The notes beneath the pieces are model-generated. The model was not told where the DNA came from and searched no databases. It saw only the letters and a program-made list of their open reading frames with translations. Positions 720 to 7,188 of a DNA stretch of 39,190 bases are shown one piece after another. How positions within the stretch are numbered: the stretch's first letter is position 1; each line of letters opens with the position of its first letter. A program made the translations under genes and the position numbers. This DNA comes from Armatimonadota bacterium (GTDB taxonomy: Bacteria; Armatimonadota; UBA5829; DTJY01): NCBI GenBank assembly GCA_017993055.1, contig JAGONM010000019.1:1-39190 (forward strand). Reading direction: 5' to 3'.

Positions 720-2177
720 ATGCAGTTTATCAGCCCTCGACGCTTCCGGATCCTCGCGTGGTCCGTGTTCGCCTTTGCAGCGGTTTCGGGGCTCACCCTG
801 TCAGCATTGTTCACCTCTACAGGAGGAGCATCGCCGTCAGGCTCTAAGAAGCTGACCATCCTGTACAGCAACCAGGCCTTCGGACAGATACGCTCGTGCA
901 ACTGCACGAAGTTCCGCTACGGGGGATATGGTCGGGAGGCCACGCTGGTTCAGAACCTGAGGAAGGAAGACCCAAACGTCGTTCTCGTCGAAGGCGGCGA
1001 TGCCGTGGGGCGCGAGGATATCGAGCAGGACAAGCTGAAGTCGGAAGTCGCAATGAAGGCGATGAAGGATATCGGGTACGCGGCGTTTGTGCCTGGCGAG
1101 GCCGAACTGCGGTTCGACCGCGAGCACATCCAGAACTGGGCCGCTCTTTCCAAGACGCCTTTCATCATGGCCAACGCCAAGTATAAAGAGACCGGAGAGC
1201 CGGTCTGCGACCAGTCTTACATAGCAGTGAAGATGCCCAACGGACTCCGCGTGACGGTAATCGGCGTCGCGGGCACCGAGCTGTTCCCGGACATGATGCA
1301 ACCGAACCTCAAAGTGGAAGTGTCGGATCCCGAGGCGGCGGTCAAGGACATTCTGCGGAAGGTCCGCTCACAGTCCGAAGTGGTAATCGTAATTGCGCAC
1401 ATGACGACAGAGAAGGCCAGGCCGCTTGCCAGGATCGCCGGCATCGACGCGCTCATCTGCACGCATTCGTTTGAGAAGCTGGAGATGCCCGAGAAGGACC
1501 GGAACATCGTGCAGACCCCGCACGAGAAGATCGGAGACTGCGTATTCGTCATCAGCAATTCGAGATCGGGATGGGGAGTGGGGAGACTCGATCTGGAGGT
1601 CGCCGGCAAGAAGATCAACGTTGTACAGAGCCGAACTTTCTTCCTCGACCGCGAATATGACGAGCACCCCACGATAGTGAAGCTCTACGACGAGTACAAC
1701 ACAAAGGTCGCCGAGATGACGGCCAAGCAGCAGAACCAGTTTCGACAGCAGTTCGAAGAGCGCTTGAAGGAACGGGGCATTGACCCTAGCACGCGCAAGC
1801 GCGAGAGCCCGTTTACCGGCGGCGACGCATGCAAGACGTGCCACGAGGACGCCTACAGCCAGTGGGCAGGCACTCGTCATGCGACGGCGATGGCCACGCT
1901 CGAGAAGATGGGACAGCAGGCCGACCCGGAGTGCGTGGGATGCCACACGACGGGGGCCCTGCAACGAGGCGGGTTCACTACACTGAAGGAGACCCCGAAC
2001 CTGGTGAACGTGCAGTGCGAGGCGTGCCACGGCGCCGGGCTCTCACACAAGGAGAAACCCGCCGCCGGATACGGCAAGGTATCAGAGGAACTCTGCCGAA
2101 GCTGTCACACTGAGGCGTACAATCCGGACTTCGACTACGAAGCGATGCTCGCGCCGGTCCGGCACAAGAAGGACTAG
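720..2177 (+). CDS. Degenerate 5'-nucleotidase-like domain fused to four-haem cytochrome c
   Basis: The protein has 485 aa. Residues 1-35 hold an N-terminal membrane anchor or signal segment. Residues ~43-330 follow the UshA/5'-nucleotidase metallophosphoesterase pattern (TILYSNQAFGQIRSC, GGYGREATLV, VEGGDAVG, GIDALICTHS). The metal-binding positions are altered: the usual TNDxHG reads SNQAFG and the usual GNHE reads GEAE, so phosphoesterase activity is doubtful. Residues 371-463 carry four CxxCH haem c motifs at C371, C405, C433 and C459, as in cytochrome c-554-type multihaem proteins. This implies a periplasmic or surface location and electron transfer. The start codon overlaps the coupling region of the preceding gene, with GGAG at 709-712. 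Fusions of this general kind are seen in multihaem cytochrome families, but the electron donor and acceptor here are unknown. Confidence 0.88.
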   Translation: MQFISPRRFRILAWSVFAFAAVSGLTLSALFTSTGGASPSGSKKLTILYSNQAFGQIRSCNCTKFRYGGYGREATLVQNLRKEDPNVVLVEGGDAVGREDIEQDKLKSEVAMKAMKDIGYAAFVPGEAELRFDREHIQNWAALSKTPFIMANAKYKETGEPVCDQSYIAVKMPNGLRVTVIGVAGTELFPDMMQPNLKVEVSDPEAAVKDILRKVRSQSEVVIVIAHMTTEKARPLARIAGIDALICTHSFEKLEMPEKDRNIVQTPHEKIGDCVFVISNSRSGWGVGRLDLEVAGKKINVVQSRTFFLDREYDEHPTIVKLYDEYNTKVAEMTAKQQNQFRQQFEERLKERGIDPSTRKRESPFTGGDACKTCHEDAYSQWAGTRHATAMATLEKMGQQADPECVGCHTTGALQRGGFTTLKETPNLVNVQCEACHGAGLSHKEKPAAGYGKVSEELCRSCHTEAYNPDFDYEAMLAPVRHKKD

Positions 2178-2250: not shown

Positions 2251-2742
2251 TCACGCTCTGCGCCGTCTGATCATCGCACCGAGCGAAGCGACTCCGCCGA
2301 GCAGGGCCATCATCGAGCCGGGTTCCGGTACGGCTACGCCGTCATACGGAGTCTGCTCCTCACCAAGCACGCTGTAGTAGGCGGTGAAGAAGAGGGCCGG
2401 CGTCGGCGCGGCGATCTCAAAACCTTTGAGCTTCTCGCCCGGGCCGGGATCGTTCCCTACGGCATCGAACGCGGGGAAGTCATAGGCGGGGTTGACAACC
2501 CAGCCGGCCGGCGCGCCGACAACCGTGAAGTAGTCGCTCGCGACCGCCGGATCCCAGTAGATGTCGAGATACAGAGGGATCACGTCTCCTCCGGGTGCGT
2601 CGTTGTTGATGAGCGTGTATATCCACGTGCCGGGCGCGGCACCGGGACCGTAGGTCATCGAGAAGGGACCCACGGCAAAAGCGGATGTGCTGCAGAGGGC
2701 GATCACAGCCAGGGCTATGATCAGGCTCAATGTCAGTTTCAT
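2251..2742 (-). CDS. PEP-CTERM sorting-signal protein
   Basis: This 163-aa protein has a clear signal peptide (MKLTLSLIIALAVIALCSTSAFA) and a mature part without recognised domains. It ends in a classical PEP-CTERM tripartite signal: VPEPGS, a hydrophobic helix (MMALLGGVASLGAMI) and a basic tail (RRRRA). Such proteins are exported by Sec, then recognised and cleaved by an exosortase, and usually end up in the exopolysaccharide matrix or at the surface. No exosortase gene is in this window. AAGGAGGT lies at 2751-2758, eight bases before the start codon. A consensus sigma-54 promoter lies about 130 bases upstream (2871-2888), which suits the known RpoN/PrsR control of PEP-CTERM genes. The core is rich in aromatic and Gly/Pro residues (GWVVNPAYDFPAF) and its function cannot be named. 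Confidence 0.93.
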   Translation of the reverse strand: MKLTLSLIIALAVIALCSTSAFAVGPFSMTYGPGAAPGTWIYTLINNDAPGGDVIPLYLDIYWDPAVASDYFTVVGAPAGWVVNPAYDFPAFDAVGNDPGPGEKLKGFEIAAPTPALFFTAYYSVLGEEQTPYDGVAVPEPGSMMALLGGVASLGAMIRRRRA

Positions 2743-2870
2743 CGTACATTACCTCCTTATAGCGGCTGACGAAACTTTTGGAAGAACGATTGCCGGACGG
2801 GTACTCTCCGTCCAGCAGGTGCAGGCACAGACGCAGAGCAGCGTTTTCCAGCGACTGCCACAGGTACTAT

Positions 2871-2888
2871 CTGCAAGAAACGTGCCAA
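2871..2888 (-). promoter_or_regulatory. Sigma-54 (RpoN) promoter of the PEP-CTERM gene
   Basis: On the minus strand this reads TTGGCACGTTTCTTGCAG, a full match to the -24/-12 consensus TGGCACG-N4-TTGCW with correct GG-to-GC spacing. The expected transcription start is near 2861, giving a 5' leader of about 120 bases. Sigma-54 promoters need an enhancer-binding protein, and PrsR is the known activator for many PEP-CTERM genes. A short inverted repeat (ACTAA at 2913-2917, TTAGT at 2923-2927) lies upstream and could be an activator site, which is only a guess. Confidence 0.8.
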
Positions 2889-2988: not shown

Positions 2989-5900
2989 ATGACTGTCAGA
3001 TTTGCACCGGCAAGAAACCTGCTCATTGCCATACTGGCGATGACTGCGCTGGTAGCGTGCAGCAGCACCCTGGCGGCACCGACTCCCGGCGCCGAGTTCA
3101 AGCTGCCCAACGCGGTCGGCCCGACTCGGTACAATCAGCAGTACACGGACATCTGCGCCGGAAACGGGGTGTATCTGGCGGTCTGGCACGACCAGCGGTC
3201 AGGCGCCGACTTCGACGTCTACGGGATCCTGCTGGACGTGAACGGCAACCCGATCGGCGAGGAGTCTTTCCTGATCTCGAAGATGACGGGAGGCGCATCT
3301 GCCCCAAATGATCAGTTATACCCGGGGGTCGGGTTCAACGGGACCAACTTCCTGGTAGCGTGGGCAGATAAACGTGCCGCCAACGTCATTCCCCGCATCT
3401 ACGCGTCCAGAGTCACCCCATCCGGCGAAGTCCTCGACCTCAATGGGATCGCACTGCCGACAGCTGTTACACCCACGGATCAGACTGCGCCGCAGATCGC
3501 ATCGAACGGCACGGACTGGATGGTCGTGTGGCAGGAGAAGAGCTCCAGCGGCAGTGACGACATATGGGGCACCGTCGTATCCGCGGCAGGCACCGTGGGT
3601 ACAAGGACTGCCATATCAAACCGCACGGACAACGAACAGTGGCCGGGCATCGCTTGGAACGGCACGAACTACCTTGTGGTATGGCAGGACTACCGAAACT
3701 CCGAGTCCACCGGCACGGATATCTACGGCGTCAGGCTCACCAGCGCAGGCGCGAAGGTGGCAGGCTCGGAGAAGATCATCTCGACCGCCGCAGGCTCTAC
3801 ATCGGCAGGGGCCGCAGGGGCTCAGAGCGTGCCCTCCGTCGCCGCGGTAGCGTCGAGCATCTGGCTCATAGTCTGGCAGGACGCTCGCGGCGCCAACTCA
3901 GACATCTACTGTGCCCGCATGAGCAGCAGCGGGACCGTATCGGATCTCGGCGGAGTGGCGGTATCCACGGCCGCCAACGATCAGGAGGAGCCAAGAGTGA
4001 CCTGGGACGGCACGTACTTCCTAGCGGCATGGAGGGACAAGAACGCCTCGTACGGCATCCGGGCCTCCAGAATCACCACGAACGCTGCGGTGCTCGATCC
4101 GGGCGGCATAGCCGTGATAAACAGCGCCGCCGGACCGTATGGGCCGGCAGTTTCAGGGCGCGACGGCGTCAGCCTGGTGGCCTGGTACTCCCTGGACATT
4201 TCCGATTCGGACATCTTCGGCGCGTCGGTCAACTCCTCCGGCCAGGTGGGTGCGCTGAAGACCCTGTCGCTCTCTACTCAAGACCAGCCGACCTTCGACG
4301 CCGCCTACGACGGCACAAACTACGTCGTTACATGGGCCGACCGCAGATCCGGAGTCTACAGAGTCTACGCGGCACGGGTATCTCCGGCCGGAGTCATCCT
4401 AGATCCGGACGGCGTGCTTGTCAGCGCCACGTACACCGGCAGCCAGACCGAGCCGACGATCGCATGGGACGGCACGCAGTTCCTAGTAGCATGGACTGAA
4501 CTCGGCGCCGTGTTCACGGACATCAAGGGCATGCGGCTATCCCCTACCCTCGCGCGCCTCGATGCCACGCCGCTGAACATCTGCAACATCGATCTGGACC
4601 AGAAATCGCCGACGGTCGCTTGGAACGGCGCGAACTTCCTCGTAGCGTGGGTGGATTATCGCGGCGCGGTCGCCCCGGACTACTTCTCCGACATCCGCGG
4701 GGCCAGGGTCTCGCCCGCCGGCGTAGTCACCGCGATCGGAACGGCGATATCGGGAGCGGCAGACCACCAGTTCGCTCCTTCGGCGGCCTCATGCGGCGGG
4801 AACTGGCTGGTCGCGTGGGAGGACTATCGAACCAACAGTTCACCGGTGGTGTACTGCACAAGGGTGACCGGCGCGGGGAGCGTACAGGATGTCGCGGGCA
4901 TAGTCGTTCCCTCGTATCCCTACTGGCAAGTTCAGCCTAGGGTCACCACCGACGGCACGAACTACTTCATCGTATGGTCCGACAAGCGCGACGGCTGGTC
5001 GAACGACAACATCTACGGCGTGCGCATGTCCACATCGGTTGTACGGCTCGATCCCGCTGACCTCCTGATCTGCGGCGCGACCTCATCACAGACAAGCCCC
5101 TCCGCCGCCTGGAACGGGCAGAAGTACCTCGTCGCCTGGCAAGACAGCCGCACGAGTTCGATCTCATCGAGCGACATATATCTGAAGCAGGTCACATCCG
5201 CCGGAGCGGTTGATCCTACGGACGCACTGATCTCCGGGGGAACCCACGCGGAGATGAACCCGAAAGTCATCGCGCCGGGGCCGGGTGCGGCGGCCTTCTT
5301 CTACAGCAACTTCATCTCGGGAACTTACCGGACTGTCGGTCGAACACTCGTCGAGGCACCGCCGGTGCCGATCGTCAGCGACGACGGCGCGATCACGACA
5401 AGTTCCTCGTCGCTGCATGCCACATGGCACGTGGGCGGCAGGGAAGCTGAGGTGCTGGAATACCGATACACGATCGGCACGACGCCGGGCGCTTCTGACG
5501 TCGTACCGTGGGCCTCGGCGGGCACCAACACCGGAATCACGCACACTGGACTCTCTCTCGTTGACGGCCAGACCTACTACTTCGCGGTCCAGAGCCGGGT
5601 CTCCGCAGATCCGTGGAGCGGCTCGGGCGTCAGCGACGGAATCATGGTAGACGCGTCCGCGCCGACGACCCCGGTCGTCACCGACGACGGGCAGTACACG
5701 TCCAGCCTCGACTCCCTCCACGCGACGTGGACATCGTCCGACCCGCAAACCGGCGTCGCGCAGTATCAGTATGCAATCGGCACGTCCTCCGGCGGGACCG
5801 ATGTCATCGGCTGGACATCGGCTGGCACGAATAGCTCAGTGACGAGGACGGGGCTCACACTATCGGAGGGCGCGACTTATTTCATAAGCGTGAAGGCCCT

Positions 5901-7188
5901 CAACGGCGCCGGGCTCTGGAGTATCGTCGGATCGAGCAACGGCATCACCGTCGAGGCGTCCGCGCCGACCACGCCGGCCGTTACCGACGACGGCGAGTAC
6001 ACTTCGAGCCAGGATACTCTTCACGCGACATGGGCGTCTTCCGATCCGCACTCGGGCATCGCGGAGTATCAGTATGCCATCGGCACGACCGCTGGCGCGA
6101 CGGACGTAGCAGGCTGGACCTCGACGGGAACGACTGCCGGGGCAACGAAGGCCGGGCTTTCGCTGAGCGATGGCACGACCTACTTCTTCTCGGTGAAGGC
6201 AAAGAACGGCGCCGACATGTGGAGCACCGTGGGAAGCAGCGATGGCATCACGGTGGACGCGAGCGCCCCGACCACTCCGACCGTAACAGACGACGGCGAT
6301 TTCACACTCCCCGATATGCTGCACGCCTCGTGGAGCGCCGAGGACCCGCATTCCGGAATCGCGGAGTATCAGTATGCCATCGGCACGACCGCAGGCGGCA
6401 ACGACATCGTGGATTGGACATCGGCGGGCGCGGATACTGAGGTCACCAAGACCGGGCTCTCGCTCTCTCAGGGAGTTCAGTACTTCGTCAGCGTGAAGGC
6501 GCTGAACGGCGCGGGCCTCTGCAGCGACGCGGGTTCGAGCGACGGCATATCAGTCGCCGCCGACGCGGGAACGAGCCTTCAGGCAAAGGCCCTCGCAGAC
6601 GGTGCAGGGCTGATCCTGAGCCACAAGGTAGTCACCGCAGGCGCGGATAACCTGCCGAACCTGGGCGGCGCCCTCTTCTACATCGAGGAGGCCGACCGGA
6701 CATCGGGCATCAAGGTCATGAGCGACGAGCCGATCAATGCCGGGAGCATCATTGACGTCGCGGGCGAGATCGAACTCGTGGACGGCGAACGGCAGATCAC
6801 GGCCTCGGCCGTCAAGGTCGTATCGACCGGGAATCAGCTTCCCCGCCCGTTCAACATGAGAGGACGCGCCATCGGAGGCGTTGACTTCAACGAGCATACC
6901 CCGGGCGTATACAACGGCGAGGGGCCAAACAACCTGGGGCTGTACATAATGACCTGGGGCAAGGTGACCTACACCGGTGGAGAAGGCGATGACTTCTTCT
7001 ACGCGAACCCGGGGACATTCTTGAGGGACGGCTCGGGCTACGTGGGAGTCAAGATCAGATGCCGTCCCGAACTCAAGCCCACGGTAGGATCGACCGTGAT
7101 CGTCACGGGCATCAGTTCCTGCGAGCCGCTCGACGAGAACTCGATCCGCCGGGTGCTGGCCACGCAAGTGCTGGAATACTCACAGTAA
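2989..7188 (+). CDS. Giant extracellular repeat protein: 14 propeller-like units, four 101-residue modules, OB-like C-terminus
   Basis: The protein has 1399 aa. The N-terminus looks like a lipoprotein signal with lipobox L21-V22-A23-C24, although a type I site after LAA is also possible. Residues ~45-790 hold 14 imperfect units of about 55 residues with the core 'NGTNFLVAW-D-R ... DIYG-R-- -G'. The number and strand pattern suggest beta-propeller blades, perhaps two seven-bladed rings. Residues ~794-1190 hold four copies of a 101-residue FN3-like module (TTPxVTDDG ... LHATW ... YAIGT ... GLxLxxGxxYFxSVKAxNGAG). Residues ~1190-1399 form two OB-like beta domains (FYIEEADRTSGIKVMSDEP; FLRDGSGYVGVKI). 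The protein is probably an adhesin or matrix protein at the cell surface. No catalytic motif is visible. The next gene shares the module and the C-terminal pair and begins 15 bases downstream, so both are probably one transcript. Confidence 0.85.
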   Translation: MTVRFAPARNLLIAILAMTALVACSSTLAAPTPGAEFKLPNAVGPTRYNQQYTDICAGNGVYLAVWHDQRSGADFDVYGILLDVNGNPIGEESFLISKMTGGASAPNDQLYPGVGFNGTNFLVAWADKRAANVIPRIYASRVTPSGEVLDLNGIALPTAVTPTDQTAPQIASNGTDWMVVWQEKSSSGSDDIWGTVVSAAGTVGTRTAISNRTDNEQWPGIAWNGTNYLVVWQDYRNSESTGTDIYGVRLTSAGAKVAGSEKIISTAAGSTSAGAAGAQSVPSVAAVASSIWLIVWQDARGANSDIYCARMSSSGTVSDLGGVAVSTAANDQEEPRVTWDGTYFLAAWRDKNASYGIRASRITTNAAVLDPGGIAVINSAAGPYGPAVSGRDGVSLVAWYSLDISDSDIFGASVNSSGQVGALKTLSLSTQDQPTFDAAYDGTNYVVTWADRRSGVYRVYAARVSPAGVILDPDGVLVSATYTGSQTEPTIAWDGTQFLVAWTELGAVFTDIKGMRLSPTLARLDATPLNICNIDLDQKSPTVAWNGANFLVAWVDYRGAVAPDYFSDIRGARVSPAGVVTAIGTAISGAADHQFAPSAASCGGNWLVAWEDYRTNSSPVVYCTRVTGAGSVQDVAGIVVPSYPYWQVQPRVTTDGTNYFIVWSDKRDGWSNDNIYGVRMSTSVVRLDPADLLICGATSSQTSPSAAWNGQKYLVAWQDSRTSSISSSDIYLKQVTSAGAVDPTDALISGGTHAEMNPKVIAPGPGAAAFFYSNFISGTYRTVGRTLVEAPPVPIVSDDGAITTSSSSLHATWHVGGREAEVLEYRYTIGTTPGASDVVPWASAGTNTGITHTGLSLVDGQTYYFAVQSRVSADPWSGSGVSDGIMVDASAPTTPVVTDDGQYTSSLDSLHATWTSSDPQTGVAQYQYAIGTSSGGTDVIGWTSAGTNSSVTRTGLTLSEGATYFISVKALNGAGLWSIVGSSNGITVEASAPTTPAVTDDGEYTSSQDTLHATWASSDPHSGIAEYQYAIGTTAGATDVAGWTSTGTTAGATKAGLSLSDGTTYFFSVKAKNGADMWSTVGSSDGITVDASAPTTPTVTDDGDFTLPDMLHASWSAEDPHSGIAEYQYAIGTTAGGNDIVDWTSAGADTEVTKTGLSLSQGVQYFVSVKALNGAGLCSDAGSSDGISVAADAGTSLQAKALADGAGLILSHKVVTAGADNLPNLGGALFYIEEADRTSGIKVMSDEPINAGSIIDVAGEIELVDGERQITASAVKVVSTGNQLPRPFNMRGRAIGGVDFNEHTPGVYNGEGPNNLGLYIMTWGKVTYTGGEGDDFFYANPGTFLRDGSGYVGVKIRCRPELKPTVGSTVIVTGISSCEPLDENSIRRVLATQVLEYSQ
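3120..5358 (+). repeat. Fourteen 'GTNFLVAW' propeller-like protein repeats
   Basis: I count 14 successive units, each with a variant of 'NGTNFLVAWxDxR' followed by 'DIYGxRxxxxG'. Examples are FNGTNFLVAWADKR, WNGTNYLVVWQDYR and WDGTQFLVAWTELG. The units have diverged, so this is a protein repeat and not a recent DNA tandem repeat. Confidence 0.8.
5368..6561 (+). repeat. Four copies of the 101-residue TTPxVTDDG module
   Basis: Copies begin near residues 794, 895, 995 and 1096. Each carries 'VxDDG', 'LHATW/LHASW', 'YxYxIGT', 'W-S-G', 'GLSL' and 'YF-V'. The middle copies are highly similar at DNA level, which suggests recent duplication or gene conversion. Confidence 0.85.

Follow-up and report, generated by a model that had tools for sequence, protein, structure and literature searches.

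The best described counterpart of the system considered here is the PEP-CTERM/EpsH regulon of Proteobacteria, in which, according to the available text of the original study, a sigma-54 site lies at 99 of 167 PEP-CTERM genes (PMC1569441). The same text reports that the sigma-54 motif was found in Proteobacteria only, and that many PEP-CTERM genes are without it (Haft et al. 2006; PMC1569441). The activator of this regulon, as far as the accessible portions of two papers describe it, possesses a Fis domain, and the enhancer motif associated with it, 17 nt in length, is located about 63 nt upstream (PMC1569441, PMC9850573). This enhancer motif ends in TTTACA and is expected 32-92 nt upstream.

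Small RNAs are also known to be produced under sigma-54. The Qrr RNAs of Vibrio, which are controlled by LuxO, depend on sigma-54, exist in several copies and base pair with mRNAs. CJnc230 of Campylobacter is an RpoN-dependent small RNA processed from the flgE mRNA, according to the part of the report available (PMC11187230). The toxic small RNAs of Betaproteobacteria (RF02278) are described, in the accessible passages, as having a 5' UCUCCUCC stretch, a hairpin and a terminator (PMC4603805, PMC7011215). FlgR of Helicobacter and CtcC of Chlamydia are sigma-54 activators which lack a DNA-binding domain, as set out in the available sections of two further papers (PMC9696931, PMC3162934). In the accessible text of PMC3333781, PEP-CTERM targets and a small RNA target belong to different regulators. 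No report combining a sigma-54 PEP-CTERM circuit with small RNAs was found in the open-licence literature.

The DNA analysed here, referred to as the window, is a stretch of 39,190 nt corresponding to bases 1-39190 of contig C19 in an Armatimonadota genome (G000; 3.72 Mb, 99.6% complete). It contains a PEP-CTERM gene at 2251-2742 on the minus strand, encoding a protein of 163 aa with a signal-peptide-like N terminus. The open reading frame exceeds the cut-offs of both PF07589 (21.2 bits, cut-off 20.7) and TIGR02595 (20.6 bits, cut-off 16), and its sorting signal, VPEPGSMMALLGGVASLGAMIRRRR, encoded at 2257-2331 (minus strand), scored 24.0 bits against TIGR02595 in the genome search. The initial annotation described this gene as a lone one, which is correct within the window; genome-wide it is one of about 47. 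It adjoins, on the opposite strand, a gene at 720-2177 (+) for a UshA/SoxB-like metallophosphoesterase fused to a cytochrome c554-type multiheme tail, which scores 234.9 bits against UshA_like_PCGU, under the cut-off of 275. Divergent from the PEP-CTERM gene is a gene at 2989-7188 (+) for a secreted-looking protein of 1399 aa with fn3 and weak beta-propeller matches.

The 246-bp intergenic region shared with the latter gene contains a sigma-54 site which points away from it and towards the PEP-CTERM gene. The minus strand reads CTTTGGCACG-TTTC-TTGCAGATAG, and in a pattern scan of the window the 16-mer TGGCACGTTTCTTGCA at 2872-2887 (TGGCACG-TTTC-TTGCA) matched the -24/-12 consensus TGGCACG-N4-TTGCW without a mismatch, including the GG and GC at -24 and -12. 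The initial annotation had recorded this exact match, one base longer on each side (2871-2888), and its gap of 129 bases between site and ATG (2742) was reproduced. Taking C2873 as position -12 again places the predicted transcription start at 2861 (minus strand). Transcription from there would yield a 5' leader of about 119 nt (2743-2861, minus strand), with a Shine-Dalgarno (SD) sequence AAGGAGG before the ATG. At gathering scores, Rfam had no match anywhere in the window, leader included. A perfect 6-bp hairpin without a T-run (GGACGG-N7-CCGTCC) lies in the leader at 2795-2813 (minus strand), and was not seen by eye in the leaders of homologs. Over the whole 39,190-nt window the next-best matches all have at least two mismatches. 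With up to three mismatches allowed, 56 matches were counted against 52 expected from shuffles, so that the exact match alone stands out; chance exact hits amount to about 0.02 per window-sized stretch, scaled from the reversed-pattern count in the 3.72-Mb genome.

The site is not an isolated occurrence. The genome holds 20 exact sites, as compared with 2 for the reversed pattern, and 39 against 12 when one mismatch is allowed. The search for PEP-CTERM proteins returned 51 hits at E<=10, of which 47, including the window gene, exceed the cut-off; 49 of the 51 have at least 100 nt of upstream sequence and could be tested for sites. The best site has no mismatch in six of these, one mismatch in six, two in none and three or more in 37. 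A site with no more than one mismatch thus precedes 12 of 49 hits, against 0 of 49 for the reversed pattern and about 0.13 expected by simple arithmetic from the genome density. One of the twelve, C27:10622, falls under the PEP-CTERM cut-off, its tail reading VPEPSG. The predicted regulon takes in roughly one PEP-CTERM gene in four. Further sites of this kind before PEP-CTERM genes had been anticipated by the initial annotation, as had separate control of the window gene; the latter is supported for a subset of PEP-CTERM genes. As in the proteobacterial PrsK/PrsR regulon, the site stands at a similar distance from the gene and serves only a subset of PEP-CTERM genes.

Six of the 20 exact sites precede PEP-CTERM genes, and behind five there is a terminator (C1:28392, C13:61809, C18:30238, C18:30435 and C18:49102). 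Another five stand before genes whose products look secreted but are not called as PEP-CTERM proteins (C1:114151, C18:15675, C26:52880, C26:4493 and C42:24532), two of which, at C26:52880 and C42:24532, run past contig ends. The proteins and leaders at C1:114151, C18:15675 and C26:52880 (L073, L075 and L087) are closely alike, the third being cut by the contig end. The site at C72:4972 precedes a radical SAM/SPASM gene (L067:5104-6162, +), whose adjoining PEP-CTERM gene has no site. Two exact sites, C3:8530 and C42:19129, are situated within long open frames and have the appearance of chance matches, and C20:67741 falls outside all the other groups. About a third of the exact sites front neither a PEP-CTERM gene nor a terminator-ended unit.

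Comparison with relatives extends this picture. There were 23 listed matches to the window protein, of which 20 were checked for sites, namely the protein itself, seven full-length homologs (31-45% identity) and 12 partial matches. An exact site precedes all seven full-length homologs, 118-153 bp ahead of the first aligned residue, and the promoter is thus characteristic of the protein family. The partial matches comprise one with an exact site, one with a one-mismatch site and ten with two or more mismatches, one of the ten having just 1 nt of upstream sequence. A contig scan with the window protein gave one hit, confined to the C terminus, in an Acetobacteraceae bin, which carries no information on relatedness. 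Among the 31 genomes compared, 25 have an RpoN over cut-off, and each of these holds two or more exact sites, albeit with numbers barely above the reversed control in G012 (4 against 3), G019 (3 against 2) and G029 (2 against 2). Five of the six genomes without an RpoN over cut-off (G001, G010, G013, G021 and G025) have no site; the sixth, G011, has four, and this genome is 69% complete. No exosortase was found in G001, G010, G013 and G025. G021 retains an exosortase and 14 PEP-CTERM matches but has neither RpoN, sites nor an ortholog of the activator discussed below, which indicates that it is RpoN, and not PEP-CTERM, with which the sites go together.

The RpoN concerned appears to be of one particular kind. 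Two RpoN matches over cut-off occur in 18 of the 31 genomes, and FlhA is found in 17 of those 18. The window genome has the first kind of RpoN alone and no FlhA. G005, G007 and G030 combine FlhA with a single RpoN, so that the division between FlhA and the second RpoN is not strict. In a tree of 28 of the 43 RpoN proteins over cut-off, a branch supported at 99/98 separates from the rest ten proteins whose RpoN box is ARRTVAKYR; the box reads ARRTVVKYREA in the 15 other tree proteins from the class. In many relatives the second RpoN adjoins flagellar-looking genes. On C12 of G003 (L194/L195), a second RpoN, an activator bearing a helix-turn-helix (HTH) and flagellar-looking genes occur together, and the surrounding sites end in TTGCT; the genes which these sites front we take to be flagellar. 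The TTGCT sites may represent a separate promoter variant that belongs to the second RpoN. Sites were sampled in the relatives from 60 of 77 further listed contexts, in addition to loci already included, and duplicate contexts were removed before site endings, terminators with anti-SD motifs and the distinctness of ribosome-binding sites were counted. Among the 92 distinct sites sampled, all 35 distinct exact sites linked to PEP-CTERM genes end in TTGCA. A site at L178 ends in T and precedes a PEP-CTERM-like tail which the search model missed.

The initial annotation had foreseen rpoN and an exosortase elsewhere in the genome. One RpoN (E 4.0e-39, profile search) and one exosortase are indeed present, the exosortase lying with EpsI inside an exopolysaccharide cluster. 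The strongest sigma-54 activator of the genome (C14:77457-78659; PF00158, E 9.1e-74) is encoded on the same contig as this cluster, directly following the gene for a GAF-GAF-GAF-PAS histidine kinase of 902 aa, and the pair is situated about 25 kb from the exosortase. In the proteobacterial PrsK/PrsR regulon, too, the kinase and activator are encoded as a pair in the neighbourhood of exopolysaccharide genes and the exosortase. Three further PF00158 hits over cut-off (E 4e-8 to 3e-5) are probably other AAA+ proteins. The activator has 400 aa and consists of a REC domain and a sigma-54 AAA+ domain, the lid of which extends to residue 397, with nothing after the lid. The same truncated layout is found in 23 orthologs from six families, and HTH_8, the Fis DNA-binding domain, was detected in none of the 23. 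HTH_8 was present in all five other activators considered, namely the best hit in G029 and four paralogs encoded no more than about 4 kb from the second RpoN. Orthologs are absent in exactly the five genomes without RpoN and sites, and one is present in G011. The comparison across genomes shows that the predicted, site-bearing regulon recurs through the class together with a truncated NtrC-type activator. Directly after the activator gene comes that of a PilZ-domain response regulator with a one-mismatch site before it (C14:78772), and this protein probably belongs to the sigma-54 regulon; in G030 and G017 exact sites precede genes which resemble it by look.

In its domain content, REC and AAA+ without a C-terminal HTH, and in being the genome's only strong activator, this protein resembles FlgR and CtcC as these are portrayed in the available literature excerpts. 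It differs from FlgR, there linked to flagella, in being associated with a PEP-CTERM regulon, and in that relatives also have an HTH-bearing activator beside flagellar-looking genes.

Two other explanations of the promoter have to be considered. The match at 2872-2887 could be a functionless coincidence, and the two exact sites within long open frames do indicate that chance matches occur among the 20. Nevertheless, both the conservation of an exact site ahead of all seven full-length homologs and the way in which site counts track RpoN over 31 genomes speak against this, and its probability is negligible. The initial annotation proposed instead that the gene is governed by the same PrsK/PrsR/RpoN circuit as in Proteobacteria, a circuit in which PrsR would act from an upstream enhancer. 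The RpoN, exosortase and EpsI, together with a tandem kinase and NtrC-type activator near an exopolysaccharide cluster, a layout like that in the available text of PMC1569441, agree with this proposal; its named regulators do not. The activator reaches 396.8 bits against PrsR (TIGR02915, cut-off 502.6) and the kinase 103.7 bits against PrsK (TIGR02916, cut-off 300), the latter through the kinase domain only. In addition to these scores and the missing Fis domain, TTTACA was present in none of 24 regions upstream of the genome's own promoters and in one of 92 in relatives, where 25-100 nt upstream were searched. Membership of PrsK/PrsR was rejected on these grounds, and the canonical circuit is regarded as highly improbable. 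Shared k-mers upstream of sites in relatives were no more frequent than in shuffles. In the window genome a GC-rich 6-mer, CGCCCG, occurs in 14 of 24 upstream regions, compared with a maximum of 13 in 40 shuffles, and an enhancer of another kind may exist there. The absence of the Fis domain and enhancer motif and the different activator family set this regulon apart from the proteobacterial one. The preferred reading, in which RpoN transcribes the PEP-CTERM gene of the window from this site as part of a genome-wide regulon, is judged from sequence comparisons to be almost certainly correct.

The terminator-ended units form a second class of apparent sigma-54 target, one which distinguishes this regulon further from that of Proteobacteria. 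Sites counted here were exact or deviated at a single base within the TT of TTGCA; 17 of the 120 distinct ones are followed within 170 nt by a terminator preceded by an anti-SD motif. The same combination was found in none of 120 upstream control stretches, whereas random stretches, up to 1500 in number, gave 22 cases, part of which overlap the small-RNA units themselves. In the window genome the anti-SD motif is present in four of the five terminator-ended units. The units share GGAAA..AACAUCUUUUUCUCCUUC, as judged from alignments of 14 and ten copies out of 20 candidate units, both of which leave out L001, L011, L138, L191 and the two of L231; UUUCUCCUUC does not vary among the ten copies of the smaller alignment, which come from five genomes. 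When reverse-complemented, the conserved core CAUCUUUUUCUCCUUC gives GAAGGAGAAAAAGAUG, in which an SD sequence, a spacer and AUG follow one another. On C18 of the window genome three copies stand in a row, with spacings of 197 and 135 bp; in G003 and G017 the units come in pairs.

RNAalifold predicted no base pair in the small-RNA alignment, and the search model R1 is consequently one of sequence only. Applied to 480 kb of the window genome, R1 recovered four units with a site (one on C13 and three on C18), while missing the terminator-ended units at C1:28392 and C18:49102. Of the units left out of the alignments, it missed L001, L011, L138 and L191, and found the two of L231 weakly (E 0.025 and 0.053). 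A small-RNA copy with a terminator but no sigma-54 site was observed at L101:1969-2032 (+) on C60, upstream of a PEP-CTERM gene, and a further hit, L099, lies antisense to the ribosome-binding site of a PEP-CTERM gene. None of the 20 small-RNA sources had an Rfam match over threshold. The unit of L137 aligns with the whole RF02278 model at 35.1 bits, and has a 5' UCUCCUCC stretch, a hairpin and a terminator like the RNAs described in the available passages on that family; unlike these it lies under the gathering score of 50, and the other 19 sources gave no match. The units resemble CJnc230, as characterized in the accessible report, in being short RNAs under sigma-54 control, here predicted. 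They differ from it in being stand-alone, in having a core that is both anti-SD and anti-AUG and in being predicted to act on exosortase cargo. The predicted sigma-54 control is a likeness to the Qrr RNAs as well, as are the several copies and the predicted base pairing with mRNAs.

The possible targets were assessed from predicted duplex energies between the cores and ribosome-binding-site windows spanning -28 to +12. Gene starts were assigned by a simple SD rule and genes were treated as independent; reading frames were called by length, so that the other genes include false frames and strong-SD subsets offer the fairer comparison. In the window genome, PEP-CTERM genes without a site pair at -21.4 kcal/mol (n=33), those with a site at -17.8 (n=8) and other genes at -14.9 (n=313), the site-less genes differing from other genes with p=1.7e-8 and from site-bearing ones with p=0.081. 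In a second family, f2 (G005, G007, G009 and G011), the values are -24.8 (n=23), -17.5 (n=8) and -14.0 kcal/mol (n=209), with p=4.5e-9 and p=0.0044, respectively. When only genes with a strong SD and ATG are compared, the gap between site-less PEP-CTERM genes and other genes is -5.3 kcal/mol (G000) and -7.7 kcal/mol (f2), and site-less and site-bearing genes differ with p=0.0077 and 0.0059 on four site-bearing genes each; under another grouping the one-sided value for G000 is 0.0063. All of the ten best partners among 240 genes in f2, and seven of the ten best among 354 in G000, are site-less PEP-CTERM genes. The leader of the window gene, by comparison, is a poor predicted partner (-10.1 to -16.6 kcal/mol). 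In a third family, f3, whose pool includes one locus of another family (L139, G017), site-less PEP-CTERM genes differ from other genes (p=4.6e-7; 0/40 shuffles) but not significantly from site-bearing ones (p=0.19); without L139, G016 alone gives p=2.2e-5 and G015 alone p=0.014. The RpoN-less G021 gives p=0.55, on 4 PEP-CTERM genes only. The ribosome-binding sites are not near-copies of one another, 33 of 33 windows in G000 and 21 of 23 in f2 being distinct below 60% identity.

Both the nature of the units and their targets admit other readings. The units might be attenuated leaders of downstream genes rather than independent small RNAs, and genes in the same direction do lie within about 150-370 nt in several cases; in the window genome these are presumably BioY-like, MFS and NanE-like genes. 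However, the core precedes unrelated genes in different genomes, being conserved where the downstream gene is not, and its occurrence as three tandem copies on C18 and as pairs in two relatives also speaks against leaders, an interpretation considered unlikely. That the units constitute a family of sigma-54 small RNA genes is, on the sequence evidence, very probable. Alternatively, the sigma-54 PEP-CTERM regulon and its truncated activator could be real and the small RNAs generic anti-SD molecules which do not act on PEP-CTERM genes. These genes have purine-rich, strong ribosome-binding sites that any anti-SD RNA would favour: purines make up a fraction of 0.77 of the 7 nt before the ATG where PEP-CTERM genes are site-less, the figure for other strong-SD genes being 0.58, and site-bearing genes are not significantly different in f3 or in the full G000 set. 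On the other hand, retaining CUCCUUC and shuffling the flanks reduces the gap from -5.3 to -0.6 kcal/mol in G000 and from -7.7 to -0.9 in f2, with none of 50 shuffles as low as the true value in either. The PEP-CTERM genes of f2 pair better with f2 RNAs than with G000 RNAs (p=0.003), while those of G000 pair equally with both (p=0.51), and the difference of differences is significant for site-less PEP-CTERM genes (p=4.6e-4) but not for other genes (p=0.45). A generic role is rated as doubtful, although it retains an appreciable chance of being right.

Taken together, the favoured model is one in which the histidine kinase would phosphorylate the activator, and this, having no enhancer-binding domain, would act from solution on RpoN holoenzyme at all sites, as H. 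pylori FlgR does. Activated RpoN would transcribe one PEP-CTERM set, which would include the window gene. The small RNAs, with a core complementary to SD, spacer and AUG, would pair with the ribosome-binding sites of sigma-54-independent PEP-CTERM mRNAs and block their translation. With one set transcribed and the other silenced, a single signal would exchange the surface cargo of the exosortase. The small-RNA arm of this switch is proposed as a computational prediction. The chain as a whole, with an RNA arm in some form, seems on balance a reasonable expectation. The specific version, in which a non-flagellar RpoN would transcribe one PEP-CTERM set and conserved, multi-copy small RNAs co-evolving with their targets would silence the other, has about an even chance of being correct.

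The five relatives without RpoN, sites or activator provide natural presence/absence controls, among which G021 keeps its exosortase and PEP-CTERM genes. The control of PEP-CTERM genes outside Proteobacteria had been an open question. Here the same class of cargo appears to be served by a different sigma-54 circuit, one without a detectable enhancer, and the small-RNA family predicts a fate for those PEP-CTERM genes which lack the sigma-54 motif.
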